From positions 62,001 to 126,000 of the forward strand of contig NZ_JAATOW010000010.1 of assembly GCF_011806405.1 (NCBI RefSeq): 64,000 nt of DNA, written 5' to 3'. How positions within the stretch are numbered: position 1 is the first letter of the stretch; every line of letters begins with the position of its first letter. Made by a program: the position numbers and the translations under genes. The stretch is from Pseudooceanicola sp. HF7. GTDB lineage: Bacteria > Pseudomonadota > Alphaproteobacteria > Rhodobacterales > Rhodobacteraceae. Positions 14,524 through 31,243 of this stretch are shown here, in pieces. Below the pieces are notes generated by a model that worked only from the letters and a program-made list of their open reading frames with translations, did not search any database and was not told the origin of the DNA.

Positions 14524-15318
14524 ATGAGCGCTCAGGATACTCTGGCCCAGCTGGCCACTTCGCTGCTCGACGGTTCGATCAAGGTCGTCGATTGCACGGC
14601 CCCCCTCGGCCCCGACACCCCGCTGCTGAAACTGCCGGATGAGATCGCCGACCAGACTCCGCCGATCGAGATCCACAAGATCTCCGAATATGGTGATCGC
14701 GGCCCCTTCTGGGCCTGGAACTGGCTGAAGCTGGGCGAACACTCCGGCACCCACTACGACGCGCCGCACCACTGGGTGACGGGCAAGGATTTCCCCGACG
14801 GCTCCGTCGACACCATCGCCCCGCAGAACTTCGTCGCCCCGGCGAACGTGCTCGATTTCTCCAAGGAAGCGGCTGAAAATCCCGGCTTCCTGCTGACCGT
14901 CGATCACGTCAAGGCCTGGGAAGCCGAGCACGGCGAGATCAAGGAAGGCGAATGGGTTCTCTTCCGCACCGACTGGGACCAGTTCAACACCGATGAAGAG
15001 AAGTTCCTGAACGACAAGGGCGAAGGCCCCGTAACTCCCGGCCCGACGGCCGAGGTCATCATTTACCTGATGGAAGAGAAGAAGGCGCTTGGCTGGGGCT
15101 CCCAGTGCATCGGCACCGACGCTGGCGCCGCCGGCGGCTTCGAAATCCCCTTCCCCGCCCACAACCTGCTGCACAAGCACAACAAGTACGGCCTGGCCTC
15201 TCTGACCAACCTCAGCGAACTGCCGGCCAAGGGCGCCGTCCTGGTCACCGCACCGCTGAAGATCGTCAAAGGCACCGGCTCTCCGATCCGCGCCCTGGCG
15301 CTCGTGCCCGGCGCATAA
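14524..15318 (+). CDS. Cyclase-family metal hydrolase (isatin hydrolase / kynurenine formamidase-like)
   Basis: A 264-residue hydrolase of the putative cyclase family. The diagnostic HSGTHYDAPHHW motif (H-x-G-T-H-x-D-x-P-x-H) binds the divalent metal. Characterised relatives include kynurenine formamidase (N-formylkynurenine to kynurenine) and the manganese isatin hydrolase (isatin to isatinate). The ATG at 14524 is selected because AGGAG precedes it by 10 nt; the upstream in-frame extension has no ribosome site. It is the first gene of a plus-strand run with flavoprotein, MarR, VOC and IorAB genes. A 267-residue paralogue lies at 33.4 kb. An amide/lactam-opening role is the best guess. Confidence 0.85.
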   Translation: MSAQDTLAQLATSLLDGSIKVVDCTAPLGPDTPLLKLPDEIADQTPPIEIHKISEYGDRGPFWAWNWLKLGEHSGTHYDAPHHWVTGKDFPDGSVDTIAPQNFVAPANVLDFSKEAAENPGFLLTVDHVKAWEAEHGEIKEGEWVLFRTDWDQFNTDEEKFLNDKGEGPVTPGPTAEVIIYLMEEKKALGWGSQCIGTDAGAAGGFEIPFPAHNLLHKHNKYGLASLTNLSELPAKGAVLVTAPLKIVKGTGSPIRALALVPGA

Positions 15319-15328
15319 GGACCTGACC

Positions 15329-16894
15329 ATGACCGCATCCGCAGATATCGCCATCGTCGGCTCCGGCATCAACGCGCTGGCCGCCGGCGCCATGCTGGCC
15401 CGATCCGGCAAACGCGTCGCCGTCTTCGAACGCGCGCCGATCGCCGGTGGCTGCATGCGGTCCGAAACACTGGCCGAGGGGGTCACCTACGATCCCCTCG
15501 CCACCACCTTCGTGCTTTGGGTTACCGGGGCCGCGCATGGCGCGCTGGCCGACGATCTTGCACGGCACGGGGTCGAATTTTGTGGCACCGACACGCCCAC
15601 GGGCGTGCTGCTGCCGGATGGCCGCGCGCTGACCTACCGGATGGACCGCGCGGCGAATGTCGCGGCTTTCGATGCCGAAGCGCCGGGGGACGGCGGCCAG
15701 CTTGCCGCCGACCTGGACGCTTTCGCAGCGGATGCCGAATTGCTGTTCGGCCTGATGGGCGGGGATCCCTGGTCCCGCTCGACAGTCAAGCTGCTTGGCA
15801 AGGAGGCCTGGAAGCGCAAGCCGCGCGGCCTGGCCACCACCATGGGCGGCGCTCTGCAAAGCATGCGCGGCTGGCTCGAAACCTCTTTCAACGGTGAACT
15901 CAACCGGGCGCTCTGGGCGCCTTGGTGCCTGCACGCGGGTCTTGGCCCGGAAGCCTCTTTCTCCGGCCAGATGGGCCAGGTCATCGGCTTCGCGCTTGAG
16001 GCCGCCGGTGCCCCCGTGGTCAAGGGCGGCGCGGCCAACATGGTGCGCGGCCTGACCGCCATCATCGAAGAACACGGCGGCGAGGTGCGCTGCAACGCAG
16101 AGGTCGCAGAGATCACCCGTGACGGCAATCGCGCCACCGGCCTGCGCCTGACCTCGGGCGAAAAGATCACGGCACCGACCGTGCTGGCCTCGGTCACGCC
16201 CAACCAGCTTTACGAAGACCTGGCCCCCGCGCCGGAACGCAAGGACGACCTGCGCAAATACAAGTACGGCAAGGGAAACTTCCAGCTTCACTACCTTCTG
16301 AAAGGCCCGGTCAACTGGAAGACGGAAGGGCTTGAGAACGTCCAGCTTCTGCACCTGACCCCGGGTCTTGATGGTGTCTCCAAGGCCGGCAACGAGGCCG
16401 AGCGCGGTATGCTGCCAGAGGTGCCGACGATCTGCGTGGGCCAGCCCTGCGCCGCCGATCCCAGCCGCGCGCCCGAGGGGCAGACGGTGCTCTGGCTGCA
16501 AATGCCCGAGGCCCCGCGCCACGTGAAAGGCGATGCCGCCGGGCAGATCGATGTGCCCGCGGACGGCCAATGGACCCAGGACCTGCGCGAAGCCTATGCC
16601 GACCGGATCGAGGCGATCCTGGCGAGCCATATCAAGGACTTCTCAGAACGCGTCGTCACCCGGCGCGCGATCTCTCCGGCCGATCTTGAAGCCTACAACA
16701 TCAACCTTGTCGGCGGCGATCCCTACGGTGGGGCCTGCTCGCTTGAGCAGTTCTTCCTCTGGCGGCCCTTCGCGGACAGCGTGCGCCATGACACCGGGCT
16801 GAAGGGGCTGTACCATATCGGTGCCTCCACCCATCCGGGCCCCGGCCTGGCGGGCGGCTCCGGCTTCCTGGTGGCCAAGGAACTGGGCGCATGA
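15329..16894 (+). CDS. NAD(P)/FAD-dependent oxidoreductase, PYROXD2/phytoene-desaturase-like
   Basis: A 521-residue flavoprotein. The N-terminal Rossmann fold is IAIVGSGINALAAGAMLA with the FERAPIAGGCMRSE continuation, and the C-terminal FAD segment is HPGPGLAGGSGFLVAKEL. These fit the PYROXD2/CrtI-like amine-oxidase superfamily, which desaturates or oxidises hydrophobic substrates. The substrate cannot be read from the sequence. It lies 10 bp after the cyclase, and its stop overlaps the MarR start (ATGA). A second family member (21724-23268) closes the same run, so the two may catalyse successive steps. Confidence 0.85.
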   Translation: MTASADIAIVGSGINALAAGAMLARSGKRVAVFERAPIAGGCMRSETLAEGVTYDPLATTFVLWVTGAAHGALADDLARHGVEFCGTDTPTGVLLPDGRALTYRMDRAANVAAFDAEAPGDGGQLAADLDAFAADAELLFGLMGGDPWSRSTVKLLGKEAWKRKPRGLATTMGGALQSMRGWLETSFNGELNRALWAPWCLHAGLGPEASFSGQMGQVIGFALEAAGAPVVKGGAANMVRGLTAIIEEHGGEVRCNAEVAEITRDGNRATGLRLTSGEKITAPTVLASVTPNQLYEDLAPAPERKDDLRKYKYGKGNFQLHYLLKGPVNWKTEGLENVQLLHLTPGLDGVSKAGNEAERGMLPEVPTICVGQPCAADPSRAPEGQTVLWLQMPEAPRHVKGDAAGQIDVPADGQWTQDLREAYADRIEAILASHIKDFSERVVTRRAISPADLEAYNINLVGGDPYGGACSLEQFFLWRPFADSVRHDTGLKGLYHIGASTHPGPGLAGGSGFLVAKELGA

Positions 16895-17337
16895 TCGACC
16901 GCCCCGAAGAGCTTGAGGAATTCACCCCCTACCTGATGAACCGCATTATCGCGCGGTACAACAAGGGGGTTGAATCCGCGCTGAAGGAGGCTGGCGTCTC
17001 CGTAGCGCAGATGCGCGCGCTGGCCGTGCTGACCGAAGGCGGCCCCTGCACGATCGGCGAGCTTTCGGTGCTGACGGTCATCAAGCAATCCACGCTCTCG
17101 CGCACCCTCGACACGATGGAACGCGCGGGCCTCATCCTGCGCCAAGCGCAGGACGGGGACAGCCGCTATCGCATGATCAGCCTGACCCCCGAAGGACAGG
17201 CCGCCTACGAAGCCGCCTGGCCGGCCATGCTGGGGATGCGGGACACGATGCTCAAGGCCCTGAGCCCGCAAGAGCAGGAAGAGCTCAACCGGATGTTGCT
17301 GAGCATTTTCTACGACATCCGCCACCACGATTTCTGA
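16891..17337 (+). CDS. MarR family transcriptional regulator
   Basis: A 148-residue winged-helix regulator. The recognition region IGELSVLTVIKQSTLSRTLDTMER and the wing with DGDSRYRMISLTPEGQ are standard for MarR. Its ATG overlaps the flavoprotein stop, which puts the regulator inside the catabolic operon, as for IacR/IadR-type regulators of indole-acetate loci. The ligand would be a pathway substrate or intermediate; this is inferred from context. Confidence 0.88.
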   Translation: MIDRPEELEEFTPYLMNRIIARYNKGVESALKEAGVSVAQMRALAVLTEGGPCTIGELSVLTVIKQSTLSRTLDTMERAGLILRQAQDGDSRYRMISLTPEGQAAYEAAWPAMLGMRDTMLKALSPQEQEELNRMLLSIFYDIRHHDF

Positions 17338-17400
17338 CCCGGGTCCCAACCGGGGTTTCCGACGCCGACTGCCAAGTCGATCGCCAACAAGGACAGCTAC

Positions 17401-17988
17401 ATGAAACGTGCACTCCTTATCGCTTCCATCGCCTGCCTGCCTGCCCTCGCGCAGGCCGAACCGCTTCCCGGCATGCGGGGCGTCGACCATATCGGGCTGA
17501 CCGTCCCGGACCTGGACCAGGCCGTGACCTTTTTCGGGGATGTTCTGGGCTGCACGGAAACCACCGGTTTCGGCCCGCTCTCGGATCCCGAGGGGACCTT
17601 CATGCAGGACCTGCTGGGCGTGGATCCGAAAGCCGTGATCGAACAGGTCACGCTGATGCGCTGCGGCTTCGGCGCCAACCTGGAGCTGTTCCAGTACAGC
17701 GCGCCCGACCAGCAGACCATCACCCAGAAGAACAGCGATATCGGGGCCTACCATATCGCGGTCTACGTCGATGATATCGACGCCGCCGTCGCCTACTTCG
17801 ACGCGAACGGCGTGAAGCACAACTGGGGTCCCCTCCCCGTCACCGATGGCCCGACCGCGGGTCAGCAGATCATCTACTTCTACGCCCCCTGGGGGCTGCA
17901 GATGGAAGCCATCACCTATCCTGACGGCATGGCCTACGAAGGCGACTCGGACACTGTCCTGTGGTCGCCCAAAGCCCCTGCCGAATAA
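17401..17988 (+). CDS. Secreted VOC-family (glyoxalase/dioxygenase-fold) protein
   Basis: A 195-residue protein with a clear Sec signal peptide (MKRALLIASIACLPALAQAEP), then one VOC module made of two beta-alpha-beta-beta-beta units. The four family metal ligands are visible: His in VDHIGLTVPD, Glu in LELFQY, His in AYHIAVYVDD and Glu in QMEAITYP. VOC enzymes (glyoxalase I, extradiol dioxygenases, epimerases) are normally cytosolic, so export is unusual. AAGGA precedes the ATG. It sits between MarR and the IorA gene and is probably a periplasmic metal enzyme or binding protein acting on the substrate before uptake. Confidence 0.82.
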   Translation: MKRALLIASIACLPALAQAEPLPGMRGVDHIGLTVPDLDQAVTFFGDVLGCTETTGFGPLSDPEGTFMQDLLGVDPKAVIEQVTLMRCGFGANLELFQYSAPDQQTITQKNSDIGAYHIAVYVDDIDAAVAYFDANGVKHNWGPLPVTDGPTAGQQIIYFYAPWGLQMEAITYPDGMAYEGDSDTVLWSPKAPAE

Positions 17989-18011
17989 CCCTATCATCCA
18001 GGAGACCACCC

Positions 18012-20156
18012 ATGGCAGAACGTTCTTTCGCCAAGGAAGTCCAGAAACTCAAAAAGGGTGAGGGCGAGACCTTCACCGGTGAGGGTATCCTTGCCATCAC
18101 CAAGGCCCTGCTCGAAAACGGCGTGGGCTACGTGGGGGGCTACCAGGGCTCTCCCATTTCCCACCTCATGGACGTGCTGGCCGATGCCCAGGAAATCCTG
18201 GGCGAGCTGGGCGTGCACTTCGAGGCCTCGGCCTCTGAAGCCACCGCAACGGCGATGCTGGCCGCCTCCGTGCATTACCCGATCCGGGGTGCCGTGACCT
18301 ACAAGTCCGTCGTCGGCACCAACGTGGCCTCTGACGCGCTGTCGAACCTCGCCTCCGGCGGTGTCACCGGCGGCGCGCTGATCATCGTCGGGGAAGACTA
18401 CGGCGAAGGCTCCTCCATCATGCAGGAGCGCACCTATGCCTTCGCGATGAAAAGCCAGGTCTGGATGCTGGATCCCCGGCCCAACCTGCCTTCCATCGTC
18501 AAGGCCGTGGGCGACGGCTTCGAGCTTTCTGAGGCCACCAACACGCCGATCATGCTGCAGGTCGGCATCCGCTCCTGCCACGTGCACGGCCATTTCACGG
18601 CCTCGGACAACAAGCGCCCCGCGCAGACGGTCTCCGACGCGCTGGAAAACCCCAAGCGGAAGCTGGACCGGATCGTCCTGCCCCCCGCGACCTACCTGCA
18701 CGAAGCCGAGAAGCTGACCAAGCGCAAGCCCGCGGCCGAGCAGTTCATCCTGGATCGCGGCATCAACGAACGCTTCGGCCAGTCCTCCTCCAAGGTCGGC
18801 CTGATCATCCAGGGCGGCACCTACAACACCGTCATCCGGGCGCTGAACCGCCTGGGCCTGGCCGATCTTTACGGCGAGACGGATATCGACATCCTCTGTC
18901 TCAACTGCGTCTACCCGCTGGTTGAAACCCAGATCCTCGATTTCTGCGACGGCAAGGATGCCGTGCTGATCGTCGAGGAAGGCCACCCCAACTACGTCGA
19001 ACAGCAGATCGCCCACATGCTTTACCAGAAGGGCAAATCGGTGAAGCTGGAAGGCAAGGGCAAGCTGCCCATGGGCGGCGAATACACCGGCCAGGTCATG
19101 GTCGACGGGCTGGGCGCCTTCTTCTCCGAACATGCGCCGGGCCTTCTGCCGGTGGCCAAGGTTGCCACCAACGAGGAACCGATCGCCATCCCCGACCTGT
19201 CGGACACCCTTCCGGCCCGCCCGCCGGGGTTCTGCACCGGCTGCCCGGAGCGCCCGATCTTCGCCGCCACCAAGCTGGTCGAGGAAGAGCTGGGGGAACA
19301 CCACATCTCCTCCGACATCGGCTGCCACCTGTTCTCCATCATGCCACCCTTCGACCTGGGCGCGACGACCATGGGCTATGGCCTGGGCCCGGCCTCTGCC
19401 GCCGCCTTCCATAACGAGGACAAGAAGGGCCGCCGCTCGATCTCCTTCGTCGGGGATGGCGGGTTCTGGCACAACGGCCTGACCTCTTCCGTGGGCAACG
19501 CGGTCTTCAACAAGTCCGACAACGTCATCGTCATCGTCGACAACTTCTACTCGGCAGCGACCGGCGGTCAGGACATCCTGTCCTCTCGGGCGGACAACAA
19601 GACCAAGCAGACCCAGAACTCCATCGTGGATGCCTGCAAGGGCATGGGCGTGAAGTGGATCCGCCAGATCGACCGCACCTATGACGTAACCAAGGTCCGC
19701 GACACGCTGAAAGAGGCCCTGACCACCGAAGAAGAAGGTCCCAAGGTCATCGTCGCCTCGTCCGAATGCATGCTGAACAAGCAGCGCCGGGTGAAGCCGC
19801 AGCTGGCCAAGGCCGCCAAGGAAGGCAAGCGCGTCATCCGGCCCCGCTTCGGCGTGGACGAAGACGTCTGCACCGGCGATCACGCCTGCATGCGCCTGTC
19901 CGGTTGCCCGTCGCTCTCCGTGAAGGACACCGGCGATCCCCTGCGCGACGATCCGGTTGCCGCCATCGACCAGACCTGCGTCGGCTGTGGCAACTGTGGC
20001 GAGGTGGCCGATGCCGCCGTGCTCTGCCCGTCCTTCTACCAGGCAGAGATCGTCTCCAACCCGACCGATGGCGAGAAGCGCCGCGCTTCGCGCGCCAACA
20101 AGGTCATCTCCTGGCTGCAAACCCGCCGTGACGCCAAGCGCGTCGCCTTCGCCTGA
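18012..20156 (+). CDS. iorA: Indolepyruvate ferredoxin oxidoreductase alpha-like subunit (IorA)
   Basis: A 714-residue thiamine-diphosphate 2-oxoacid oxidoreductase subunit. The N-terminal pyrimidine-binding part starts with GGYQGSPISH. The TPP-binding part follows (FVGDGGFWHNGL and VIVIVDNFYSAATGGQ). A C-terminal ferredoxin-like domain carries C-x5-C-x5-CP and CVGCGNC plus LCP. The first cluster spacing is not the standard CxxCxxCxxxCP. The family converts aryl-pyruvates or aryl-2-oxo acids to aryl-acyl-CoA with release of CO2. The ATG at 18012 follows a CAGGAG site; an upstream in-frame extension is rejected. IorB is encoded 10 bp later. Confidence 0.85.
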   Translation: MAERSFAKEVQKLKKGEGETFTGEGILAITKALLENGVGYVGGYQGSPISHLMDVLADAQEILGELGVHFEASASEATATAMLAASVHYPIRGAVTYKSVVGTNVASDALSNLASGGVTGGALIIVGEDYGEGSSIMQERTYAFAMKSQVWMLDPRPNLPSIVKAVGDGFELSEATNTPIMLQVGIRSCHVHGHFTASDNKRPAQTVSDALENPKRKLDRIVLPPATYLHEAEKLTKRKPAAEQFILDRGINERFGQSSSKVGLIIQGGTYNTVIRALNRLGLADLYGETDIDILCLNCVYPLVETQILDFCDGKDAVLIVEEGHPNYVEQQIAHMLYQKGKSVKLEGKGKLPMGGEYTGQVMVDGLGAFFSEHAPGLLPVAKVATNEEPIAIPDLSDTLPARPPGFCTGCPERPIFAATKLVEEELGEHHISSDIGCHLFSIMPPFDLGATTMGYGLGPASAAAFHNEDKKGRRSISFVGDGGFWHNGLTSSVGNAVFNKSDNVIVIVDNFYSAATGGQDILSSRADNKTKQTQNSIVDACKGMGVKWIRQIDRTYDVTKVRDTLKEALTTEEEGPKVIVASSECMLNKQRRVKPQLAKAAKEGKRVIRPRFGVDEDVCTGDHACMRLSGCPSLSVKDTGDPLRDDPVAAIDQTCVGCGNCGEVADAAVLCPSFYQAEIVSNPTDGEKRRASRANKVISWLQTRRDAKRVAFA

Positions 20157-20166
20157 GGACACGCCC

Positions 20167-21720
20167 ATGAACATGCCAGTCCAGCAACCGATCATCGCCC
20201 GCCGCTCCCCCGGTCCTGACGGGGAAAAGGTCATCACCCTTGCCGCTCTCGCCGTCGGCGGGCAGGGCGGCGGCGTCCTGACCAACTGGATCGTCGCCGT
20301 GGCCGAGGCCAACGGCTACCGCGCGCAATCCACCTCTGTCGCCGGGGTCGCACAGCGGACCGGCGCCACGATCTACTACGTCGAGATGTGCCGCGACACC
20401 GGCCGTATGCCGGTCTTCGCCCTGTCGCCCTCCATCGGGGACGTGGACATCCTGATGGCCTCCGAGCTGATGGAAGGCGGCCGTGCGATCATGCGCGGCT
20501 TCGTCACCCCCGGCCGCACCACCCTGATCGCCTCCACCCACCGGATTGCGGCGGTGTCGGAAAAGGTCGCGCCCGGTGACGGCCGCGCCAACAGCGCAGA
20601 GGTGATCGAAGCCATGGGGATCGCGGCGGACCATACCGTCGCCTTCGACATGGAGACCGTCGCCAAGGAAGCCGGCTCCGTCATCTCCTCCTCCCTGCTG
20701 GGGGCGCTTGCGGGCTCCGGTGCCCTGCCCTTCCCGCGGGAAAGCTACGAAGAGGTGATCCGCGCCTCCGGTCGCGGCGTCGAAGCCTCGCTGCGCAGCT
20801 TCGGCGCGGCCTATGACATCGCCACCGGTGCCTCCCCCGCACCCGAGGCCCCCGAAGCCCCGGTCAAACCGGTGCCCGTGCTCAACGTGCCCAAGAAGCT
20901 GAAGGCGGACTGGGACAAGGTCGAAGCGCGCGTGGCCGCCCTGCCTGCCGAAGTGCAGGAAATGGCCGGCCTGGGCATCAAGAAGGTCGTCGATTACCAG
21001 GACGTCGCCTATGGCGCGCAGTACCTCGACATGGTCGAACAGGTGCTGGCCCTGGACGAAGCCCCCTATGACATGACGATCGCCGCGGCCAAGTATTGTT
21101 CCCGCGCGCTCTGCTACGATGACCTGCCCCGCGTGGCGGACATCAAGACGCGGGCCTCCCGCTTCGACCGGGTCCGCGACGAGGTCGTCGTCAAGGATGA
21201 CCAGCTGATGATGCTGACGGAATACTTCCACCCCCGTTACGAGGAATTCGCCGCCTCCATGCCCAGGGGTCTGGGCCGCTGGCTTCAGAAGCGCAAGGGG
21301 CTGGAAGCCTTCTATGGCAAGCACTTCGACAAGGGCCGCCGCATTCGCACCGACTCCCTCAGCGGCTTCCTGATGCTCTGGGTGGTCTCTTCCCTGCGTC
21401 CGATCCGCCGCCGCCTGCTGCGCCATGAATCCGAAATGGCCCATGTGGACACCTGGTTCTCCAAGGTTCTGGAAACGGCCAAGACGGACCGCGCCCTGGC
21501 CGCAGAGGTTCTGGCCAACTACCGGCTGATCAAGGGCTATTCGGACACCCACGTCCGCGGCCATTCCAAGTTCGCCAAGGTGATGTCGGCGCTCGACATG
21601 CTGAAGGGGCGAGAAGATGCCGCCGACTGGATGCGCCGCCTGCGCACCGCCGCGCTGGATGACGTCGAAGGAGAGAAGCTGGACGGGGCCCTTGCCACCG
21701 TGCGCAGCTTCGCGGCGTAA
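20167..21720 (+). CDS. iorB: Indolepyruvate oxidoreductase beta-like subunit (IorB) with long C-terminal extension
   Basis: A 517-residue protein. The first 210 residues form the gamma/beta domain of 2-oxoacid:acceptor oxidoreductases (AVGGQGGGVLTNWIVAVAEANGY and SVAGVAQRTGATIYYVEM). A helical C-terminal extension of about 300 residues follows, as in the DUF6537-type IorB proteins of aerobic proteobacteria. It completes the IorA enzyme by binding CoA. The ATG at 20167 lies just after IorA. An open frame extending upstream into IorA has no homology. Substrate is likely an aryl 2-oxo acid. Confidence 0.85.
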   Translation: MNMPVQQPIIARRSPGPDGEKVITLAALAVGGQGGGVLTNWIVAVAEANGYRAQSTSVAGVAQRTGATIYYVEMCRDTGRMPVFALSPSIGDVDILMASELMEGGRAIMRGFVTPGRTTLIASTHRIAAVSEKVAPGDGRANSAEVIEAMGIAADHTVAFDMETVAKEAGSVISSSLLGALAGSGALPFPRESYEEVIRASGRGVEASLRSFGAAYDIATGASPAPEAPEAPVKPVPVLNVPKKLKADWDKVEARVAALPAEVQEMAGLGIKKVVDYQDVAYGAQYLDMVEQVLALDEAPYDMTIAAAKYCSRALCYDDLPRVADIKTRASRFDRVRDEVVVKDDQLMMLTEYFHPRYEEFAASMPRGLGRWLQKRKGLEAFYGKHFDKGRRIRTDSLSGFLMLWVVSSLRPIRRRLLRHESEMAHVDTWFSKVLETAKTDRALAAEVLANYRLIKGYSDTHVRGHSKFAKVMSALDMLKGREDAADWMRRLRTAALDDVEGEKLDGALATVRSFAA

Positions 21721-21723
21721 CCC

Positions 21724-23344: not shown

Positions 23345-23400
23345 TCGAAAGACGAAGTCCGGCGAACCGGACCGCTACACACCAACAGGAGTCTTGGCAC

Positions 23401-24939
23401 ATGAAAGAACTCAGCACTCTCAGCCGGCGCGGCTTTCTAGGCGCTTCGGCCGCCCTTTCGGCCTTGCTTGTCTCCGGCGTCCCGACGCTGGCGCAAGATG
23501 GCAGCAACCTGACCATCGCCTACAACCTTCCGGTCCAAAGCTGGGATCCCACCACGGGTCCCGCGGCCGTGAACCCGGCGCTGCAATCGGTCTACCTGGC
23601 CGTCTTCGACCGTTTCATCGGCCAGGCGCCCGACCTGTCCTTCGAACCCGGCCTGCTGACCGACTGGAGCTTCAGCGAGGACAAGTCCACCATCACCATG
23701 ACCGTCCGTGAGGGCGTGAAATGGCACAATGGCGCGGATCTGACCCCGGAAGACGTCGTCTGGTCCCTGAAACGCGCGGCGAACCCGGAAACCGGCAACC
23801 CGATGCAGTTCGTCTGGGGCAAGATCGGCAACTTCGCGATCGACGGCCAGGTGATCACCGCCGACGTGATGGAATTCGAACCCGCGCTCTTCAAGTGGAT
23901 GGCCTTCCTGACCGCCTTCGTCCTGCCCAAGGCATATTACGAGGAAGTCGGCCCCGAGGGCTTCGAGAACGCCCCCGTCGGCACCGGCCCCTACATGGTC
24001 GACGCCTTCGAACAGGGCGCCTATGTTCGCCTCAAGGCCTTCCCCGACTACTGGGGTGACGCGCCCGAGTTCGAGACCGTGACGATCAAGTTCGTGACCG
24101 ATTCCGCCTCCCGCGTGGCAGAGATCGAATCCGGCAACTCCGATATCACCACGAACATCCCCTACGAAGAATACGACCGCCTGATCGCCAAGGACGGCCT
24201 GTCCGGCGAAGCGGTGCCGATCACCGACATCGGCATGATCTTCCTCAACGATATCGACGTGATGACCGACAAGAACGTGCGTCTTGCGGCCCACCACGCC
24301 ATCGACAAGCAGCTGATCATCGACCGCCTGCTGCGCGGCTACGGCGTGCCGATCTCCACGCTGGAAGCACCGGGTTACGCGGCTTACGACGACAGCATCG
24401 TTGTGGAATACGACCCCGAGCTCTCCAAGGAACTGCTGGCGGAGTCCGGCTATTCCACCGACAACCCGGTCAAGTTCACCATCCAGACGACCCGCGGCTT
24501 CAAGCCCAAGGATTACGAGATGATCCAGGCCATCGTCGGCATGTGGCGCAAGGTCGGCATCGAGGCAGAGATCGAGGTCTACGAGATCGCCAAGCACTAC
24601 GAGCTGCGCGCGACCGATACCCTGGCACCGGCGGCCTTCTACAACTGGGGAAACTCCATCGGGGATCCCTCGACCTCCACCGGGTTCTCCATGTTCGGCC
24701 CCTCGCCCCACGCGGTCTGGGATACCCAGGACCTGATCGACAAGATCGGCCCCCTCTTCGTCGAACCCGACGAGGAAAAGCGGATCCAGGGCTACAAGGA
24801 CGTATCGAAATACATCGCGGAAGAGGGCTACGTGATCCCGCTGCTGCAATACGTGATGCCGATCGTCTATGCCTCTGACCTCTCGGTCACGCCCTATACC
24901 TCCGGCGACCTGCTGCCGCAGGCTGTCTCCAAGTCCTGA
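23401..24939 (+). CDS. ABC transporter substrate-binding protein, peptide/nickel (DppA/OppA) family
   Basis: A 512-residue family-5 solute-binding protein. The N-terminus SRRGFLGASAALSALLVSG is a twin-arginine (Tat) signal, so the protein may be exported folded. The domain shows the typical WHNGADLTPEDVVWSLKRA signature. It would capture an oligopeptide-like or other amphipathic solute in the periplasm for the DppBC channel encoded downstream. Given the surrounding catabolic genes, the ligand may be an aromatic amide or conjugate rather than a peptide. A shared operator lies upstream, and a perfect 11-bp hairpin follows. Confidence 0.9.
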   Translation: MKELSTLSRRGFLGASAALSALLVSGVPTLAQDGSNLTIAYNLPVQSWDPTTGPAAVNPALQSVYLAVFDRFIGQAPDLSFEPGLLTDWSFSEDKSTITMTVREGVKWHNGADLTPEDVVWSLKRAANPETGNPMQFVWGKIGNFAIDGQVITADVMEFEPALFKWMAFLTAFVLPKAYYEEVGPEGFENAPVGTGPYMVDAFEQGAYVRLKAFPDYWGDAPEFETVTIKFVTDSASRVAEIESGNSDITTNIPYEEYDRLIAKDGLSGEAVPITDIGMIFLNDIDVMTDKNVRLAAHHAIDKQLIIDRLLRGYGVPISTLEAPGYAAYDDSIVVEYDPELSKELLAESGYSTDNPVKFTIQTTRGFKPKDYEMIQAIVGMWRKVGIEAEIEVYEIAKHYELRATDTLAPAAFYNWGNSIGDPSTSTGFSMFGPSPHAVWDTQDLIDKIGPLFVEPDEEKRIQGYKDVSKYIAEEGYVIPLLQYVMPIVYASDLSVTPYTSGDLLPQAVSKS

Positions 24940-24955
24940 TACCCGCCGTCAGGCT

Positions 24956-24983
24956 GGCCCGGTCCGCCCCTTCGGACCGGGCC
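24956..24983 (+). terminator. Intra-operon attenuator hairpin after the binding-protein gene
   Basis: A perfect 11-bp stem (24956-24966 with 24973-24983, 6-nt loop) without a T-tract. It sits in the 64-bp gap between the binding-protein and permease genes, matching the arrangement after dctP. Confidence 0.65.
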
Positions 24984-25003
24984 CCAGAATTCCCGAGGAT
25001 CCC

Positions 25004-26011
25004 ATGCTGCTCAGAACCGTTCTGATCCGGTTGCTGACCACGGCCATCACCCTGTTCGGTGTGGCCGTCGTTGTCTTTACGCTTGTCCGCGTTGCCCCCG
25101 GCAACCCCATTGCCATGATGCTTCCCCCCGGTGCCACCGAACAGGACATCGCCAATCTCACCGCGCTTTACGGCTTTGACAAAAGCCTGCCACACCAGTT
25201 CGTCATCTGGCTGAGCGGCGTGGTGCAGGGGGACTTCGGAACCTCGATCACCCTGCGCCGCCCGGTGTCGGAACTGGTGCTAAGCCGCCTGCCCGCCACG
25301 CTTGAGCTTTCGGTCATGGCGCTGTTCATCGCCGTTGCGCTTGGCGGCTTCGTGGCCGTGCTTGGCGCACGCCGCCGCAATTCCGCGACCGAGGTCGGGC
25401 TGGACCTGTCCAGCGGCGCGGTGCTCTCGATCCCGGATTTCCTCTGGGGTCTGATCTTCGTGCTGCTCTTCGGGGTGCTCTGGCCGGTGCTGTCGATCTC
25501 CGGCCGCATCGATCCCCGGATCGAGTTCGATTTCACCACCAACTATTACGTGCTGGAGGGGCTGCTGCGCGGGCGTTTCGATGTCGTCGGCTCCACCCTT
25601 GGGCACATGCTGATGCCGGCCATGTCGCTGGCACTGCCCTTGGCGGCCATGATCGCCCAGCTTCTCAAGCAGAACCTGAAGGAAGAGCTGCTGAAGGATT
25701 ACACCACCCTGACCCGGGTGCGCGGCTTCACCGAAACCGCCGTGATCCTGCGCGAGGCGCTGCGCAACGCCGCACTGCCCACGCTGGCGCTGGTGGGGGT
25801 GCAGTTCACCTTCCTGATCGGCGGCACCGTGATCGTCGAACGGCTGTTTGCCTACGAAGGCCTTGGCAATATGGCCATCGACGCGGTGATCAACCGGGAC
25901 CTGCCGCTGATCCAGGGTATCGTGATGCTCTTCGCCGCGCTCTTCATCGTGATCAACCTTGCCGTCGATCTCTCCTACACCCTTCTGAACCCGAGGCTCC
26001 GTCATGGCTGA
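25004..26011 (+). CDS. ABC transporter permease, DppB-like
   Basis: A 335-residue inner-membrane permease with an N-terminal helix, a periplasmic loop (FGTSITLRRPVSELVLSRLPAT) and five further helices. The EAA-type cytosolic loop DYTTLTRVRGFTETAVILREALRNAALP contacts the ATPase. The ATG at 25004 matches family length; a longer in-frame start would run back into the binding-protein gene. The last 8 nt overlap the DppC-like gene. It forms the channel with the next gene product. Confidence 0.92.
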   Translation: MLLRTVLIRLLTTAITLFGVAVVVFTLVRVAPGNPIAMMLPPGATEQDIANLTALYGFDKSLPHQFVIWLSGVVQGDFGTSITLRRPVSELVLSRLPATLELSVMALFIAVALGGFVAVLGARRRNSATEVGLDLSSGAVLSIPDFLWGLIFVLLFGVLWPVLSISGRIDPRIEFDFTTNYYVLEGLLRGRFDVVGSTLGHMLMPAMSLALPLAAMIAQLLKQNLKEELLKDYTTLTRVRGFTETAVILREALRNAALPTLALVGVQFTFLIGGTVIVERLFAYEGLGNMAIDAVINRDLPLIQGIVMLFAALFIVINLAVDLSYTLLNPRLRHG

Positions 26012-26867
26012 TGTCACCGCCTCCCCCCGCAGTCGCGCTGGCCAGGGCCTGAACCTGCGCCTCTGGCTGCCGCTGACCTGGATCGTGATCCTGATCTGCG
26101 CGGCCGTCTTCGCGCCGCTGGTCGCCCCGCAGGACCCGCTGATGCAGGACCTGATGATGGAGCGCCTGCCCCCCTTCTTCATGGACGGCTCCGAACCCGG
26201 TTTCTGGCTGGGCACGGACAGCCTGGGCCGCGACGTGCTGTCCCGGATGATCTACGGCGCCCGCATCGCGCTCTTCGTCAGCGTCATCGCGGCGACCACC
26301 ACCTGCCTCTTCGGCTCTGCCCTTGGCCTGCTGGCCGGCTATTACGGCGGCTGGTGGGATCGCGTGATCTCGCGTCTGGTCGATATCTGGATGGCCTTCC
26401 CGCCGGTGCTGTTCGCCGTGCTGCTGGTGGCCGTCATGGGTACCGGCCTCACCTCGGTCATTGCCGCCATCGCCCTGATCGACTGGACCCGCTTCGCGCG
26501 TGTCATCCGGGCAGAGACCATGGTTCAGGCGCGCATGGACTACGTTGACAGCGCCCGCATCGGCGGCGCGCGCCGCCTGGCCACGCTGGTCACCGAAATC
26601 CTGCCCAACGTGCTGCCCACCATCATCGCCCTGCTGATGCTGGAAATGGGCATCGCCATCATCGTCGAGGCGATCCTGAGCTTCGTGAACCTCTCGATTT
26701 CCTCCGACGACCCCACCTGGGGCTCGATGATCGCCGAGGGGCGCGGTGCCATCCACTTTGCCTGGTGGGTGCTGCTGTTCCCGCTGATCGCGCTGTTCTT
26801 CAGCGTGCTCAGCTTCTCAACCCTGGGCGAAGGCCTGAAGAAACGTTTCGATCCGGTGCTGCAATGA
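26004..26867 (+). CDS. ABC transporter permease, DppC-like
   Basis: A 287-residue permease with the typical N-terminal helix, the GTDSLGRDVLSRMIYGARIAL segment and the EAA loop with MDYVDSARIGGARRLATLVTEILPN. It pairs with the DppB-like subunit to form the transmembrane pore. The ORF begins within the end of dppB and ends with an ATGA overlap to the first ATPase, so the four membrane/ATPase genes are translationally coupled. Confidence 0.92.
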   Translation: MADVTASPRSRAGQGLNLRLWLPLTWIVILICAAVFAPLVAPQDPLMQDLMMERLPPFFMDGSEPGFWLGTDSLGRDVLSRMIYGARIALFVSVIAATTTCLFGSALGLLAGYYGGWWDRVISRLVDIWMAFPPVLFAVLLVAVMGTGLTSVIAAIALIDWTRFARVIRAETMVQARMDYVDSARIGGARRLATLVTEILPNVLPTIIALLMLEMGIAIIVEAILSFVNLSISSDDPTWGSMIAEGRGAIHFAWWVLLFPLIALFFSVLSFSTLGEGLKKRFDPVLQ

Positions 26868-27760
26868 GCCAACAGACACAACACCGCCACGCGCTGGAGA
26901 TCATCAACCTCTCCATCGCGCTGCCCAATGGCGTCCGCCTGCTGCGCGACGTCTCCCTGAAGCTGGAACCGGGCGAGGTCCGCGCGCTGGTGGGCGAAAG
27001 CGGCGCGGGCAAGTCGATGATCGGCAAGACCGTGCTTGGCATCCTGCCCGACACGCTGAAGATCACCCAGGGTGAGATCATCCTGGAAGGTCAGCACCTG
27101 AACATGATGACCCCCTGGACCCGCCGCAAGACGGTGGCCGAGATCACGGCGCTGATCCCTCAGGATCCGCTGACGGCGCTGAACCCGCTGCGCAAGATCG
27201 GTCCGCAGATCGTCGATCCGCTGATCCGTATCCGCGGCTGGGAAAAGGACCGCGCCCGGGCCCGCGCGCTGGAACTGCTGGAGCGCGTGCACATCCGCGC
27301 GCCCGAACGGGTGATGCAAAGCTACCCGCATGAGCTTTCCGGCGGGATGCGCCAGCGGATCCTCATCGCGGCAGCCTTCGCGCCCTCGCCCCGGCTGATC
27401 GTCGCGGATGAACCCACCACCGCGCTCGACGTGACCGTGCAGAAGGAAATCCTGAAGCTGATCCGCGAGCTGCAGAAGGAAACCGGCACCGCCGTCCTCT
27501 TCGTGACCCACGACATGGGCGTGGTTGCCAAGATCTCCCAGCAGGTGACGGTGCTCTTTGCCGGCAAGGTGATGGAAGACGCCCCCACGCGGGAGGTCTT
27601 CACCAACCCGGCCCATCCCTATACCCGCGCGCTGATCGCCGCGACGCCCAGCTCGGCTGACCTTGATCGGCCGTTCAGCCCCGTCCCCACGGAGCTGATC
27701 GCAGAGCTGCACGCCCAGGTCGCCCGGGACGATGCCCTTTGGCAGGGAAAGAAACGATGA
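26864..27760 (+). CDS. ABC transporter ATP-binding protein, DppD-like
   Basis: A 298-residue ATPase. It has Walker A (GESGAGKSM), Q-loop, signature LSGGMRQRI, Walker B (LIVADEPTTALD) and the H-loop (VTHDMG), followed by the C-terminal oligopeptide-transporter extension with PYTRALIAATPS. It powers the permease pair together with the DppF-like ATPase. The start at 26864 is fixed by the ATGA overlap with the permease stop; an earlier in-frame start lies inside the permease gene. Confidence 0.92.
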   Translation: MSQQTQHRHALEIINLSIALPNGVRLLRDVSLKLEPGEVRALVGESGAGKSMIGKTVLGILPDTLKITQGEIILEGQHLNMMTPWTRRKTVAEITALIPQDPLTALNPLRKIGPQIVDPLIRIRGWEKDRARARALELLERVHIRAPERVMQSYPHELSGGMRQRILIAAAFAPSPRLIVADEPTTALDVTVQKEILKLIRELQKETGTAVLFVTHDMGVVAKISQQVTVLFAGKVMEDAPTREVFTNPAHPYTRALIAATPSSADLDRPFSPVPTELIAELHAQVARDDALWQGKKR

Positions 27761-28563
27761 CTGCGCTGTTCTCCATCCGTGACCTGCACCTGTCCTTCCC
27801 GGACCGGGGCAACAAGCCGCTCTTCGGCCCCGCCCCCCGGATCGAGGTGCTGAAAGGCCTGACGCTGGACATCCCCGAGGGCCGGATCACCGGAATCGTG
27901 GGTGAATCCGGATCGGGCAAATCCACCTTCGGGCGGGTGCTCGTGCGGCTGCTCGATCCCGATTCCGGCCAGGTGCTCTTTGACGGCAAGGATATCGCCA
28001 CCCTGGATGAAGAGGCGATCCTGCCCCTGCGCCGCGATCTGCAGATGATCTTCCAGGACCCGATGTCCTCTCTCAACCCGCGCCACCGGGTCTGGCGGCT
28101 GATCGCCCAGCCGCTCAAGCGCTACGGGCGCGGTGGCACCAAGGCACAGGCGACAGAGGCCCTGGCCCGCGTCGGCCTGCCCGCCGCCTTCGCCGATCGC
28201 TACCCGCACCAGCTGTCCGGTGGCCAGCGTCAGCGCGTCGGCATCGCCCGCGCCATCGCGCTTGAGCCGCGCTTCATCCTGGCGGATGAGATCGTCTCGG
28301 GCCTCGATGTCTCAAGCCAGGCTCAGGTGCTGATGCTGCTCAAGCAGCTGGCAGAAGAAATGGGGCTGACGGTCGCTTTCATCAGCCACGACCTCTCGGT
28401 GATCCGTCACCTCTGCGACAACGTGGTGGTGCTGAACCACGGAGAGATCGTGGACGCCGGCCCCGTGGCCGAGGTCTTCGAGAATCCGCAATCCGAGGTG
28501 ACCCGGAAACTGCTGTCGGCCATCCCCTTGCCGGAGATGGATGACGATTGGTTCAACGATTGA
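27757..28563 (+). CDS. ABC transporter ATP-binding protein, DppF-like
   Basis: A 268-residue ATPase with Walker A (GESGSGKST), signature LSGGQRQRV, Walker B (FILADEIVSGLD) and H-loop (ISHDLSV). Note that the canonical DEP of Walker B reads DEI. It is the last gene of the five-gene importer and overlaps the DppD-like gene by ATGA. A hairpin terminator stands 6 bp beyond its stop, against the convergent flavin reductase gene. Confidence 0.9.
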   Translation: MTALFSIRDLHLSFPDRGNKPLFGPAPRIEVLKGLTLDIPEGRITGIVGESGSGKSTFGRVLVRLLDPDSGQVLFDGKDIATLDEEAILPLRRDLQMIFQDPMSSLNPRHRVWRLIAQPLKRYGRGGTKAQATEALARVGLPAAFADRYPHQLSGGQRQRVGIARAIALEPRFILADEIVSGLDVSSQAQVLMLLKQLAEEMGLTVAFISHDLSVIRHLCDNVVVLNHGEIVDAGPVAEVFENPQSEVTRKLLSAIPLPEMDDDWFND

Positions 28564-28597: not shown

Positions 28598-29113
28598 TCA
28601 CTCCGCCGCCAGCGCGTGGAACCTGGAGCGCGCATAGACCAGTGCGCCGCGTTCCGGGGCCAGCCGCACATCCGTGATCTTGCCGATGAAGACCCGGTGA
28701 CTGCCGTTCAGGCTGTCGCTGGTGACCTCGCAGGCGATGGAGGCCAGGGCAGAGCCAAGCCGCGGCAGGCCGGATCCACAGGTCTCCCAGGCGCCCTCGC
28801 GGAACTTCTCCGCACCGCGCGCGCCCTTTGCACCGGCGAAATGCAGGGCAAGCCCCTCGGCCTCGTCAGACAATAGTTGAACGCTGAACTTTCCGGTCTC
28901 ACGGATCGCGGCGCAGGTCTCTGTGCCGGCGTTCACGCAGACCAGCAGGCTGGGCGGGCTGTCCGTCAGCGAACAGACGGCGGTTGCGGTCAGGCCGCGC
29001 CGGGCCGCGCCCTCTCCGGCGGTGATCAGGGTCACCGCGCCGGGGAATAGCCCCATGGCCTCGCGGAACTGCTCACGCGTGATGGTCGCGTCGGAAAGGC
29101 TGTCGTTGGTCAT
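28598..29113 (-). CDS. Flavin reductase (HpaC-like)
   Basis: A 171-residue FMN-binding split-barrel protein: LFPGAVTLITAG, then GLTATAVCSLTDSPPSLLVCVN, then GKFSVQLLSDEA. It supplies reduced flavin to a two-component monooxygenase. The obvious partner is the acyl-CoA-dehydrogenase-fold oxygenase at 30053-31243, transcribed just upstream on the same strand with a LysR gene between (4-nt overlap with that gene). This is the usual HpaBC/HsaAB or IacA-IacG arrangement. Confidence 0.88.
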   Translation of the reverse strand: MTNDSLSDATITREQFREAMGLFPGAVTLITAGEGAARRGLTATAVCSLTDSPPSLLVCVNAGTETCAAIRETGKFSVQLLSDEAEGLALHFAGAKGARGAEKFREGAWETCGSGLPRLGSALASIACEVTSDSLNGSHRVFIGKITDVRLAPERGALVYARSRFHALAAE

Positions 29114-30030
29114 ACTGACATCTCCACTGTTTCGGCCAGCAACCCGTGCAACCAGGTCAGGCCGGGGTCGGAGGCAAAGCTCTCGTGGACCCAGAAGTTC
29201 ACATCGAAACCGGACACGTCGAAGGGCAGTTCGGCAAACCCGAACTCGCCATGCCGGTTCATCAGCGCGCAGACCGAATGCGGAAAGAGCGCAACGAAAT
29301 CAGTGCGCCGGATGATCTCCGGCACGATGGTGAAGTGATCGACCTGGGCGACGACCCGGTAGGGCACGCCCAGTTCGGCAATCCGTTCCCGCGCCATGCG
29401 GTAGCCGGTGGCATCCTGCCCGACGTCCAGGAAGGACAGGCCGGCAAAGCTGGCCGGCGTCCAGTCCTGCCCGCACAGGGGATGACCCGCGCGGAACAGG
29501 CAGATGATCCGGTCCTTCATCACCGGCCAGCCCTGGCAGCTGGTCTCAAGCAGGCGCGGCTGGTAGCCGATGGCCGCATCCACCTGCCCCGTGCGCAGGG
29601 CAGAGGCGATCGTGTCGGGCGGCACCCGGGTGGACTGGACCCGAACGCCCGGCGCCACCTTCTGAAGGGCCGCCAGCAGGCGCGGCAGGATGACGAATTC
29701 GCCGGTGTCGGTCATGGCCACGCGGAACTGGCGTTCCGCCGTGGCCGGATCAAACCGGGTTGTCGCCTGCATGGTATCCGCCACCAGCCGCAGCGCCTCC
29801 TCGAAAGAGGCGCGCAGGGTGACGGCCATCTGCGTGGGCTCCATCCCGTTGCCGGAGCGCACGAAAAGCGGATCGTCGAATTCGTCGCGCAGGCGGCGCA
29901 GGGCATGGCTGACGGCGGGCTGGGTCAGGCCCAGCCGACCGGCAGCCTGGGTCAGGTTGCCGCTTTCCCAGACCGCAAGGAAGACCTTGATCAGGTTCAG
30001 GTCGAACCTCAGAAGGGTCTTGTTGTCCAT
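29110..30030 (-). CDS. LysR-family transcriptional regulator (NodD-like)
   Basis: A 306-residue LTTR. The N-terminal helix-turn-helix is FLAVWESGNLTQAAGRLGLTQPAVSHALRRL, followed by FVRSGNGMEPT, and the remainder is a periplasmic-binding-like effector domain. It is most like the NodD/aromatic-sensing branch. It lies between the monooxygenase and flavin reductase genes on the same strand, so it is co-transcribed with its likely target operon. The start lies 22 bp after the monooxygenase stop. Confidence 0.9.
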   Translation of the reverse strand: MDNKTLLRFDLNLIKVFLAVWESGNLTQAAGRLGLTQPAVSHALRRLRDEFDDPLFVRSGNGMEPTQMAVTLRASFEEALRLVADTMQATTRFDPATAERQFRVAMTDTGEFVILPRLLAALQKVAPGVRVQSTRVPPDTIASALRTGQVDAAIGYQPRLLETSCQGWPVMKDRIICLFRAGHPLCGQDWTPASFAGLSFLDVGQDATGYRMARERIAELGVPYRVVAQVDHFTIVPEIIRRTDFVALFPHSVCALMNRHGEFGFAELPFDVSGFDVNFWVHESFASDPGLTWLHGLLAETVEMSV

Positions 30031-30052
30031 GCGCCCTGCCCCTTTTCCCGGC

Positions 30053-31243
30053 TCAGGGGTAGCCGCGCGGCGCGTCCAGCCCCGCCAGCACCCGGCCCGC
30101 GCTTTCCATGGTCATTTCGGTGACGGCAGCGTGCTGCGTCACGACCATGGCATCGCGCAGGTGGCGCTGCATCGGGCTTTTCTTGCTGATCACGCCCATG
30201 CCGGCAATCCGGTAGGCCTGCTGGACCACTTCGGCACCCTTGAGGGCCGCGGTGGTGGCGCTCAGGCGCAGCATGTTGACCTGGTCAAGCGGCACCGGGT
30301 CACCCTTCATCAGGCTGTCCCATGCCTCTTCGGCGGCCTCGTAGAAGAAGGCGCGGATGGAGCGCAGCTTGGCTTCGCATTCCGCGATGCCGGTCAGGAA
30401 ATAGGGGCGGTCGCACAGGCGCGCATGACCCACGTTGATCTTGGCCGCGCCGGAGACGGACTTGGCGTATTCGATGGCCGCCCGGGCCAGGCCCAGGTTG
30501 CAGGCCGCGTGGACCTGCGCCTGGTAGGCCATGGCGGGGTACTTGTAGAGCGGCTCGTCGATCACGCCCGGCGCGCCGCGTTCGCAGATCCACATGTCGG
30601 CGTAGAACTTGTCCTTGACCGTGGTGTCGTGGCTGCCGGTGCCCTGCATGCCCGAGACTTCCCAGGTCTCAATGATGTCAACCTCTTGCGCGGGGGCGAC
30701 GGCCATCATGACGGTGGGCGTATCCTCTCCGCCCTGGGGCGCACCGGCGATGCCGACACCGATCCAGTCAGCGCCCATGCAACCAGAGGCGAACTTCCAG
30801 CGGCCCGAGACATTCCAGCCGCCCTCGACCCGCGTGGCCTCCTGCACCGGGTGCAGACCGCCGGCAAAGACCTGGTCGGGACCATCGGCGTACATCACCG
30901 CCTGGGCCTCTTCGCAGAGTGCCGCGGTATAGGTATTGGCCGACCCGAAGGCCGAGACCCATGCAGCGGAGCCATCGACGGTGCCGATCTTGTCGACCAT
31001 CTTCAGGAAATGATGCGGCGCCATGGCGTCACCGCCGAATTTCTTCGGCGTGGCAGAGCGGAAGATCCTGGCCTTTTTCATGAGGTCGATCACGTCGCGG
31101 GGGACATGGCGCAGGGTTTCGAACTCATCCCGGCGGGCTTCCAGAACCTCGAGAAGATGGGTGAATTCCGGAGTCTCGGTCAGGCGGGAGAAATCAACCG
31201 TCTCAGCCGGGGCGCCGGTCAAGGCCTTGTCTACATGGGTCAT
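30053..31243 (-). CDS. Flavin-dependent monooxygenase, acyl-CoA-dehydrogenase fold (HsaA/IacA/IifC-like)
   Basis: A 396-residue group D flavin monooxygenase. It shows an N-terminal helical domain, the central beta domain (WNVSGRWKFASGCMGADWIGVG and GSHDTTVKDKF), and a C-terminal helical domain that ends near QRHLRDAMVVTQHAAV. Relatives hydroxylate phenols (HsaA, HpaB) or start indole and indole-acetate degradation (IifC, IacA). A flavin reductase two genes downstream would provide FADH2/FMNH2. The ATG at 31243 has AAGGA 7 nt before it; a longer in-frame start is AT-rich and lacks homology. The substrate is inferred from context only. Confidence 0.85.
   Translation of the reverse strand: MTHVDKALTGAPAETVDFSRLTETPEFTHLLEVLEARRDEFETLRHVPRDVIDLMKKARIFRSATPKKFGGDAMAPHHFLKMVDKIGTVDGSAAWVSAFGSANTYTAALCEEAQAVMYADGPDQVFAGGLHPVQEATRVEGGWNVSGRWKFASGCMGADWIGVGIAGAPQGGEDTPTVMMAVAPAQEVDIIETWEVSGMQGTGSHDTTVKDKFYADMWICERGAPGVIDEPLYKYPAMAYQAQVHAACNLGLARAAIEYAKSVSGAAKINVGHARLCDRPYFLTGIAECEAKLRSIRAFFYEAAEEAWDSLMKGDPVPLDQVNMLRLSATTAALKGAEVVQQAYRIAGMGVISKKSPMQRHLRDAMVVTQHAAVTEMTMESAGRVLAGLDAPRGYP

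Follow-up and report, generated by a model that had tools for sequence, protein, structure and literature searches.

The 64,000-nucleotide stretch of Pseudooceanicola sp. HF7 considered here (contig NZ_JAATOW010000010.1, positions 62,001 to 126,000; hereafter the window; G+C 65%, from a genome, G000, that is 97% complete) carries what appears to be a locus for isatin-type indole degradation, built around isatin hydrolase, a two-subunit oxidoreductase of the IorAB type and a fused 2-aminobenzoyl-CoA monooxygenase/reductase (ABM). Translations and family scans found in place the genes named in a preliminary description of this DNA. A forward-strand run at 14524-28563 comprises a cyclase, the flavoprotein FAD1, a MarR regulator, a vicinal oxygen chelate (VOC)/glyoxalase-like protein, IorA, IorB, the flavoprotein FAD2 and a Dpp-type ATP-binding cassette (ABC) transporter; with intergenic gaps of -4 to 63 nt from the cyclase through FAD2, it is operon-like. 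The VOC gene was absent from the preliminary list, and a second cyclase (33370-34173, reverse strand) was mentioned there, though it lies outside the span described (14524-31243). The genes discussed below are as follows (SDR, short-chain dehydrogenase/reductase).

14524-15318 (+): isatin hydrolase, B type (isatin to isatinate); 65.4% identity to LaIHB, HxGTHxDxPxH motif intact
15329-16894 (+): FAD1, CrtI/CrtO-like flavoprotein by family scans, neighbour of isatin hydrolase and IorAB in many loci; proposed isatin-forming helper
16891-17337 (+): MarR regulator; nearest solved chains 3cjn, 7kym and 3cdh
17401-17988 (+): VOC/glyoxalase-like protein with apparent signal peptide; PF13669, PF00903
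18012-20156 (+): IorA, thiamine diphosphate (ThDP) subunit with C-terminal ferredoxin-like domain; PF02775; proposed isatinate:ferredoxin (CoA-acylating) oxidoreductase
20167-21720 (+): IorB, gamma/POR domain and DUF6537; PF01558, PF20169, NF006179
21724-23268 (+): FAD2, CrtI/CrtO-like flavoprotein by structure model and fold matches
23401-28563 (+): Dpp/Opp-type ABC transporter (binding protein, two permeases, two ATPases); family matches (binding protein) and conserved placement
2661-3071 (-), extent of a tblastn match: RidA enamine/imine deaminase; 86% to RidA of relatives' ABM blocks
3085-4328 (-): thioesterase and SDR of the ABM block, from family scans and relatives' loci
4253-6538 (-): ABM, 2-aminobenzoyl-CoA monooxygenase/reductase fusion; PRK08255
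6776-7261 (+): 4HBT-type thioesterase adjoining ABM; PF13279
33370-34173 (-): isatin hydrolase, A type, in the IadI-like place of the gene order; 482.5 bits to 5nnb
34170-35429 (-): ChsH2-like/SDR fusion of an iadFGH-like block, by order and 51-64% identity to counterparts
35426-36607 (-): thiolase of the iadFGH-like block, by order and 69-75% identity to counterparts
36607-38295 (-): AMP-forming acyl-CoA ligase of the iadFGH-like block, by order; passes PRK06155
28598-29113 (-): flavin reductase; with the next two genes, probably a separate module
29110-30030 (-): LysR regulator, neighbour of the flavin reductase and group D monooxygenase
30053-31243 (-): group D (acyl-CoA-dehydrogenase-like) monooxygenase, probably of the separate module

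By sequence, both window cyclases are isatin hydrolases. The cyclase at 14524-15318 is 65.4% identical to LaIHB (4j0n) over 263 positions (phmmer, 394 bits), while that at 33370-34173 scores 482.5 bits against LaIHA (5nnb) and at most 34 bits against KynB chains. The manganese ligands, catalytic histidine and aromatic pocket residues of isatin hydrolase are named in PMC6117287 (statements about published work refer throughout to the accessible parts of the papers cited); H73, H77, D79, H83, W65, W84 and H212 are kept in both window cyclases and in 10 relatives, in all of which F63 is replaced by Trp and position 209 is Phe or Tyr. The suggestion that these cyclases group with isatin hydrolase, and not with KynB or lactonases, was thus well founded.

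IorA and IorB have the traits of the 2-oxoacid:ferredoxin oxidoreductase superfamily, namely a ThDP domain (PF02775), a POR gamma domain (PF01558) and Fe-S cysteines. Eleven IorA cysteines, four in the core and seven in the ferredoxin-like C-terminal part, are conserved in 84 of 84 alignment rows. IorB scores 662.1 bits against NF006179 (cut-off 348; protein scanned with an upstream extension). IorA reaches 294.5 bits against TIGR03336, the alpha subunit of indolepyruvate oxidoreductase (IOR), and is not filed as that enzyme because the curated cut-off is 650.9. Neither subunit had a match among the solved protein chains searched by phmmer.

ABM, a monooxygenase joined to an Old Yellow Enzyme-type reductase, scores 1212.9 bits against NCBIfam PRK08255 (cut-off 1078). 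It lies about 8 kb upstream of the cyclase at 14524, with SDR, thioesterase, RidA and MarR genes nearby. PRK08255 is named for salicylyl-CoA 5-hydroxylase and does not settle the substrate, which could still be salicylyl-CoA; the RidA gene in the block instead favours 2-aminobenzoyl-CoA, as RidA chemistry suits an amino-substituted product.

Across the family IorAB co-occurs with both isatin hydrolase and the ABM fusion, in line with the check that the preliminary description proposed. Family counts come from 295 genomes, one per each of 294 genera, without further correction for shared ancestry, and are to be read knowing that plasmids spread isatin hydrolase, IorAB and ABM genes. With orthologs of IorA and ABM set, by our own choice, at 60% identity or more, and isatin hydrolase at E<=1e-30, IorA occurs in 63 genomes and isatin hydrolase in 59. 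All 59 isatin hydrolase genomes have the IorA ortholog, against 4 of the 236 others (G155, G229, G251 and G272). A more distant IorA clade (under 60%) stands alone in eight family genomes, none of which has isatin hydrolase. As a control, a fused IOR paralog of the same genome shows no enrichment (45/59 isatin hydrolase genomes, 198/236 others); the fused paralogs were accordingly rejected as the relevant enzyme. ABM is present in 102 of the 295 genomes, in 56/63 with IorA and 46/232 without (p=3e-24), counts that omit relatives of 46-48% identity in G055, G255, G139 and G282 and partial matches in G135 and G019.

The link with isatin hydrolase extends to a class-wide draw of 337 genomes, where an IorA homolog (E<=1e-100) occurs in 51 and isatin hydrolase in 12; all 12 have the homolog, compared with 39 of the 325 others. 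At 60% identity the overlap falls to 7/14 versus 5/323, so the partner IorA outside the family is often only 55-57% identical. Of 80 IorA loci in named genomes, 70 are flanked by 8 kb or more on each side, and isatin hydrolase is present in 68 of the 70. ABM lies within reach in 16 of the 80, and a ligase ortholog is visible in one of those 16, several of which end at a 10-kb flank. Within the family draw, ABM lies no more than 20 kb from IorA in 14 genomes. IorA neighbourhoods were retrieved for 40 of 61 listed places, together with the window's own, and G069 is outside the locus set. The second Pseudooceanicola genome in the family draw (G192, the only other of its genus) has no match for IorA, ABM or isatin hydrolase, and the isatin locus is therefore accessory.

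Several relatives bring the whole set together. Locus L044 has a run of indole monooxygenase, flavin reductase, ABM, SDR, thioesterase, RidA, MarR, isatin hydrolase, FAD1, MarR, IorA, IorB, FAD2 and ABC transporter, and L049, L116 (an Alloyangia plasmid) and L236 carry the same genes in other orders, so that each of the four loci combines indole monooxygenase, isatin hydrolase, IorAB and ABM. The best solved match of this monooxygenase is 7z4x (608 bits), which we take to be Acinetobacter indole monooxygenase; the gene occurs in eight of the 135 IorA loci (seven records, L213 and L236 being one genome). An IadD-like gene is found in six (L064, L123, L227, L228, L255 and L261). L123 and L064 combine IadCDEF-like genes with IorAB and ABM, and neither shows a ligase ortholog in its visible stretch; L228 has the IadD-like gene, ABM and the ligase. 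Other arrangements are isatin hydrolase-MarR-IorA-IorB-ABM-SDR-MarR followed by enoyl-CoA hydratase (ECH) and acyl-CoA dehydrogenase (ACAD) genes in Chelativorans (L080), ABM-thioesterase-IorB-IorA in one direction in G251 (L138), and IadC- to IadI-like genes followed by ABM in G193 (L204), with the ligase on a different contig. In the IorA tree, indole-type and auxin-type loci are interspersed, with three changes each (62 and 52 of 500 shuffles did as well or better); a shared isatinate intermediate would predict such mixing.

In Ruegeria pomeroyi (L115:18761-19240) and Shinella (L122:15727-16215), a thioesterase gene directly follows IorB and two MarR genes come next; a thioesterase here would fit release of anthranilate from 2-aminobenzoyl-CoA. 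A linuron plasmid of Hydrogenophaga (L118) carries an IorA homolog split in two, lacking an annotated IorB neighbour and lying near Rieske and glutamine-synthetase-like genes and insertion sequences; the stretch examined has no isatin hydrolase match and is uninformative.

The families of the hydrolases, IorAB and ABM, their linkage and the lack of a ligase ortholog in the genome are evident from sequence. From them we infer, with a probability of roughly two in three, that the window is an isatin-type indole degradation locus in which IorAB oxidatively decarboxylates isatinate to 2-aminobenzoyl-CoA and ABM uses the product. Isatin hydrolase would open isatin to isatinate (2-aminophenylglyoxylate), IorAB would convert isatinate and CoA into 2-aminobenzoyl-CoA by ThDP/Fe-S-dependent oxidative decarboxylation, reducing ferredoxin, and the ABM fusion would hydroxylate and reduce the thioester. 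Such an entry into the 2-aminobenzoyl-CoA route would bypass free anthranilate and the ATP-dependent ligase. Phenylglyoxylate:acceptor oxidoreductase converts phenylglyoxylate to benzoyl-CoA, and because isatinate is likewise an aryl 2-oxo acid, an IOR-type ThDP/Fe-S oxidoreductase could make 2-aminobenzoyl-CoA.

The ligase bears directly on this proposal. Canonical ABM operons of the family, such as those on the Paracoccus denitrificans and R. pomeroyi plasmids, have the order ABM-SDR-MarR-ECH-ACAD-RidA-ligase and end in an AMP-forming ligase, whereas the 64-kb window has no ortholog of the ligase, ECH or ACAD. No ligase ortholog was found in G000 or in G260 (99% complete) at E<=1e-60, in line with the predicted bypass of the ligase; G260 has the same ABM-isatin hydrolase-IorAB cluster as the window. 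The ligase ortholog is likewise missing at E<=1e-100 from two further genomes that have IorA and ABM, G138 (100% complete) and G102 (95%). Of 102 ABM loci (100 retrieved, the window and L233), 89 remained after removal of 13 whose downstream flank was shorter than 7.4 kb, and among the 89 the ligase is absent within about 8.5 kb from 6/14 loci near IorA compared with 4/75 far from it (p=0.0008). The lower pathway also differs from the canonical one, as the window has no ECH or ACAD ortholog and no close ACAD occurs in G000, G260 or G239 (best 31-37%). In the ABM blocks of the window (2-7261), G239 and G260, FAH-family, SDR, thioesterase and RidA genes stand in place of ECH and ACAD.

A number of observations weigh against the proposed IorAB step. 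No isatin hydrolase match is found in 4 of the 63 genomes with the IorA ortholog, the IorAB genes of R. pomeroyi have no isatin hydrolase within 15 kb, and 46 ABM genomes have no IorA ortholog. Of the six ligase-less loci near IorA, four (G239, G251, G215 and G104) belong to genomes that encode a ligase ortholog at another site; for G239 and G215 that site is 12-16 kb away on the same contig. The ligase is kept in 51 of the 56 genomes with both IorA and ABM. Its absence genome-wide (5/56 ABM genomes with IorA, 1/46 without, the latter a 62% complete genome) was discarded as a test, being in the right direction and not significant (p=0.22). The AlphaFold model of IorA (mean predicted local distance difference test score, pLDDT, 57.5) is too poor for judging an active site. 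Lastly, a Variovorax iadC-K2 gene set without iadA fully restores anthranilate (PMC12633357), which counts against IadAB, the auxin-locus counterpart of IorAB, being needed for anthranilate. IorAB can, on the predicted chemistry, stand in for the ligase, yet most genomes keep both.

The last result belongs with the first alternative, which we consider improbable: isatinate would reach free anthranilate by another route (e.g. through 2-aminobenzaldehyde), ABM would be supplied by a CoA ligase, following the classical abm pathway, and IorAB would have a different part in indole metabolism. Anthranilate is the reported end product of the iad pathway (PMC9613470) and is formed by iadC-K2 without iadA (PMC12633357), and a ligase ortholog occurs in 96 of the 102 ABM genomes. 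That route nevertheless leaves the 59/59 link between isatin hydrolase and IorA unexplained, and it conflicts with the missing ligase ortholog in the window's genome and G260, which both have ABM, and in G138 and G102. The iad experiments also contain a hint in the other direction. Compounds of formula C7H7NO and C8H7NO3 build up only on iadC-K2 overexpression (Jiang et al., PMC12633357), in a strain whose background deletion covers gene IDs including iadA (PMC9613470) and, we infer, iadB; build-up without iadA fits a missing isatinate consumer, which would be IadAB.

A further alternative, slightly less probable, takes IorAB for an indolepyruvate oxidoreductase that converts transaminated tryptophan to indole-3-acetyl-CoA and so feeds an auxin pathway. 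This agrees with the family annotation and with Conway et al., who list the genes as indolepyruvate ferredoxin oxidoreductase, and in L050, L051, L053, L054 and L080 IorAB has an aminotransferase gene nearby. These are, however, only 5 of the 135 IorA loci, the IorA score lies well below the curated IOR alpha cut-off (294.5 vs 650.9 bits), and the distribution of the fused IOR paralogs does not follow that of isatin hydrolase. IorAB moreover accompanies indole monooxygenase and isatin hydrolase where no IadCDE-like gene is seen, and indoleacetate would be dispensable there. Least likely is a kynurenine route (tryptophan dioxygenase to N-formylkynurenine, the cyclase as formamidase, an aminotransferase giving 2-aminobenzoylpyruvate and IorAB giving 2-aminobenzoylacetyl-CoA), which has real support in a Paracoccus group (L050, L051 and L054) with a tryptophan 2,3-dioxygenase gene directly 5' of cyclase-MarR-IorA-IorB and an aminotransferase after it, in L053 with both genes downstream, in L034 with a dioxygenase after the transporter, and in a dioxygenase homolog elsewhere in the window's genome (where no kynureninase scored above cut-off), but which is opposed by the isatin hydrolase sequence and pocket of the cyclases, by the presence of dioxygenase types in only 6/135 IorA loci, and by the lack of a dioxygenase match in G260, G239 and G102, all of which have IorA, ABM and isatin hydrolase.

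Isatin itself may arise here through an IadFGH-like block, two CrtO-like flavoproteins, or both. The block at 33370-38295 has the IadF-G-H-I order of loci with IadCDE-like genes, labels that rest on gene order and on the annotation of an Azospirillum plasmid. Identities to IadCDE-type loci are 75-83% for the cyclase (against four loci), 69-75% for the thiolase and 51-64% for the ChsH2-like/SDR fusion; the acyl-CoA ligase at 36607-38295 passes PRK06155 and is only 34% identical to the Azospirillum IadF-like protein. A search of the window alone at 1e-8 gave no match to the Azospirillum IadC-, IadD- or IadE-like proteins, and the window has no match to the relatives' indole monooxygenase and no IadJ-like match of note (best IadSDR match 34%). 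Of the 135 IorA loci, 85 contain FAD1/FAD2, yet just one of the six loci with IadD does, a pattern expected if the two flavoproteins form isatin where the iad oxygenase does not. The FAD2 model (pLDDT 86.3) best resembles carotenoid desaturases, followed by the nicotine oxidoreductase NicA2, and yields only a carotenoid-desaturase/amine-oxidase fold. Just upstream of the run are genes for a flavin adenine dinucleotide (FAD) oxidase and an HpcH aldolase (11841-13981), a pair also found beside FAD1/FAD2 in L046, L057, L058, L059, L061 and L225.

A broader proposal, tentative and in its full form unlikely, would make the IorAB clade a dedicated isatinate:ferredoxin oxidoreductase, with the same role for IadAB in auxin degradation and a common exit for isatin derived from indole, auxin and other indoles. 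The CrtO-like flavoproteins would turn an imported compound of the oxindole type into isatin through two dehydrogenations and the addition of water, and sites with the FAD oxidase and HpcH pair (11841-13981) may give isatin and pyruvate by retro-aldol cleavage of 3-hydroxyoxindole-3-pyruvate.

The group D monooxygenase, proposed in the preliminary description as an entry enzyme of the IifC/IacA type, did not bear out that role. It occurs in 2 of the 135 IorA loci, a third case being annotated on plasmid pLA6_001, and its best curated model is HsaA, at 152.8 bits against a cut-off of 450. Its relatives (60%) in Caballeronia adjoin LysR, HpaC and HpcH, and in Celeribacter and Caballeronia the gene travels with LysR, flavin reductase, FAD oxidase and HpcH aldolase. 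The flavin reductase, LysR and monooxygenase genes at 28598-31243 probably form a separate module, and the monooxygenase was set aside as entry enzyme, though not disproved. The genes at 8350-13981 (tripartite ATP-independent periplasmic (TRAP) transporter, V4R, FAD oxidase and HpcH) and at 28598-31243 resemble a single module that the isatin operon interrupts. L046 has a contiguous FAD oxidase-HpcH-reductase-LysR-monooxygenase set, and a similar set lies on Caballeronia plasmid L265.

Among the other genes of the run, the five transporter genes hold their position beside the core in Mesorhizobium and Rhodobacterales loci, the VOC/glyoxalase-like gene is present in 3/135 IorA loci and hence is not core, and the MarR regulator is nearest to the solved chains 3cjn (107.9 bits) and 7kym (81.4) and distant from 3cdh (37.5). 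Rfam and tRNA scans of the window found nothing, and a promoter scan gave a count no higher than in shuffles. Elsewhere, a ScpB-like gene adjoins a DUF1403 gene (39262-40844, reverse strand), and genes at 50729-59386 for a pyrroloquinoline quinone (PQQ)-dependent alcohol dehydrogenase-type protein, a cytochrome c, binding proteins and a beta-propeller protein form a quinoprotein alcohol oxidation cluster.

The preliminary description had held that no pathway with such a step was known. This stands for the step itself, as the open-licence literature (subscription literature being mostly uncovered) yielded no paper that assigns isatinate to 2-aminobenzoyl-CoA conversion to IorAB or any other enzyme. 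It does not stand for the wider route, since PMC9613470 already describes conversion of isatin to anthranilate for auxin iad loci, with the IorAB (IadAB) genes serving as markers to which its accessible part assigns no function. Reviews list as open both the standing of isatin as a true intermediate in aerobic indole degradation and the identity of the genes that act on it next (PMC6221969). If correct, the proposal would mean that the 2-aminobenzoyl-CoA pathway can be entered without the ligase and at a saving of ATP, and that marine and soil degraders of indole and auxin can be recognised in genomes by isatin hydrolase together with IorAB, whether or not ABM is present; the locus also suggests what the unexplained IorAB of auxin-degrading bacteria may do.

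Among the closest known systems, IOR and phenylglyoxylate:acceptor oxidoreductase share with IorAB the ThDP/Fe-S 2-oxoacid oxidoreductase architecture and decarboxylation to an acyl-CoA, though the window IorA falls far under the IOR alpha cut-off. Labrenzia aggregata, like the window, has both isatin hydrolase types, LaIHA and LaIHB, with the metal site and aromatic pocket kept (PMC6117287); Phe63 of LaIHB is Trp in the window cyclases, and no partner enzymes are discussed there. The abm pathway of Azoarcus evansii, also described in Arthrobacter Rue61a (PMC3534580), shares the ABM fusion, RidA and thioesterase genes and has 2-aminobenzoyl-CoA as proposed substrate. The iif/ind pathway (IifC, IifB and IifA) likewise takes indole aerobically to the level of anthranilate, but reportedly bypasses isatin via a cofactor-independent oxygenase (PMC6221969), whereas the window route would be built around isatin hydrolase. 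With the iad loci of Variovorax, Bradyrhizobium and Ruegeria (PMC9613470, PMC12633357) the window shares a kynurenine-formamidase-like IadI, IorAB (IadAB) markers, MarR control and the IadF-G-H-I-like order seen at 33370-38295, and the iad route likewise involves isatin, isatinate and anthranilate, whether as intermediates or as end product. Unlike them, the window has no IadCDE-like oxygenase or notable IadJ match, and it carries two CrtO-like flavoproteins and the ABM fusion.

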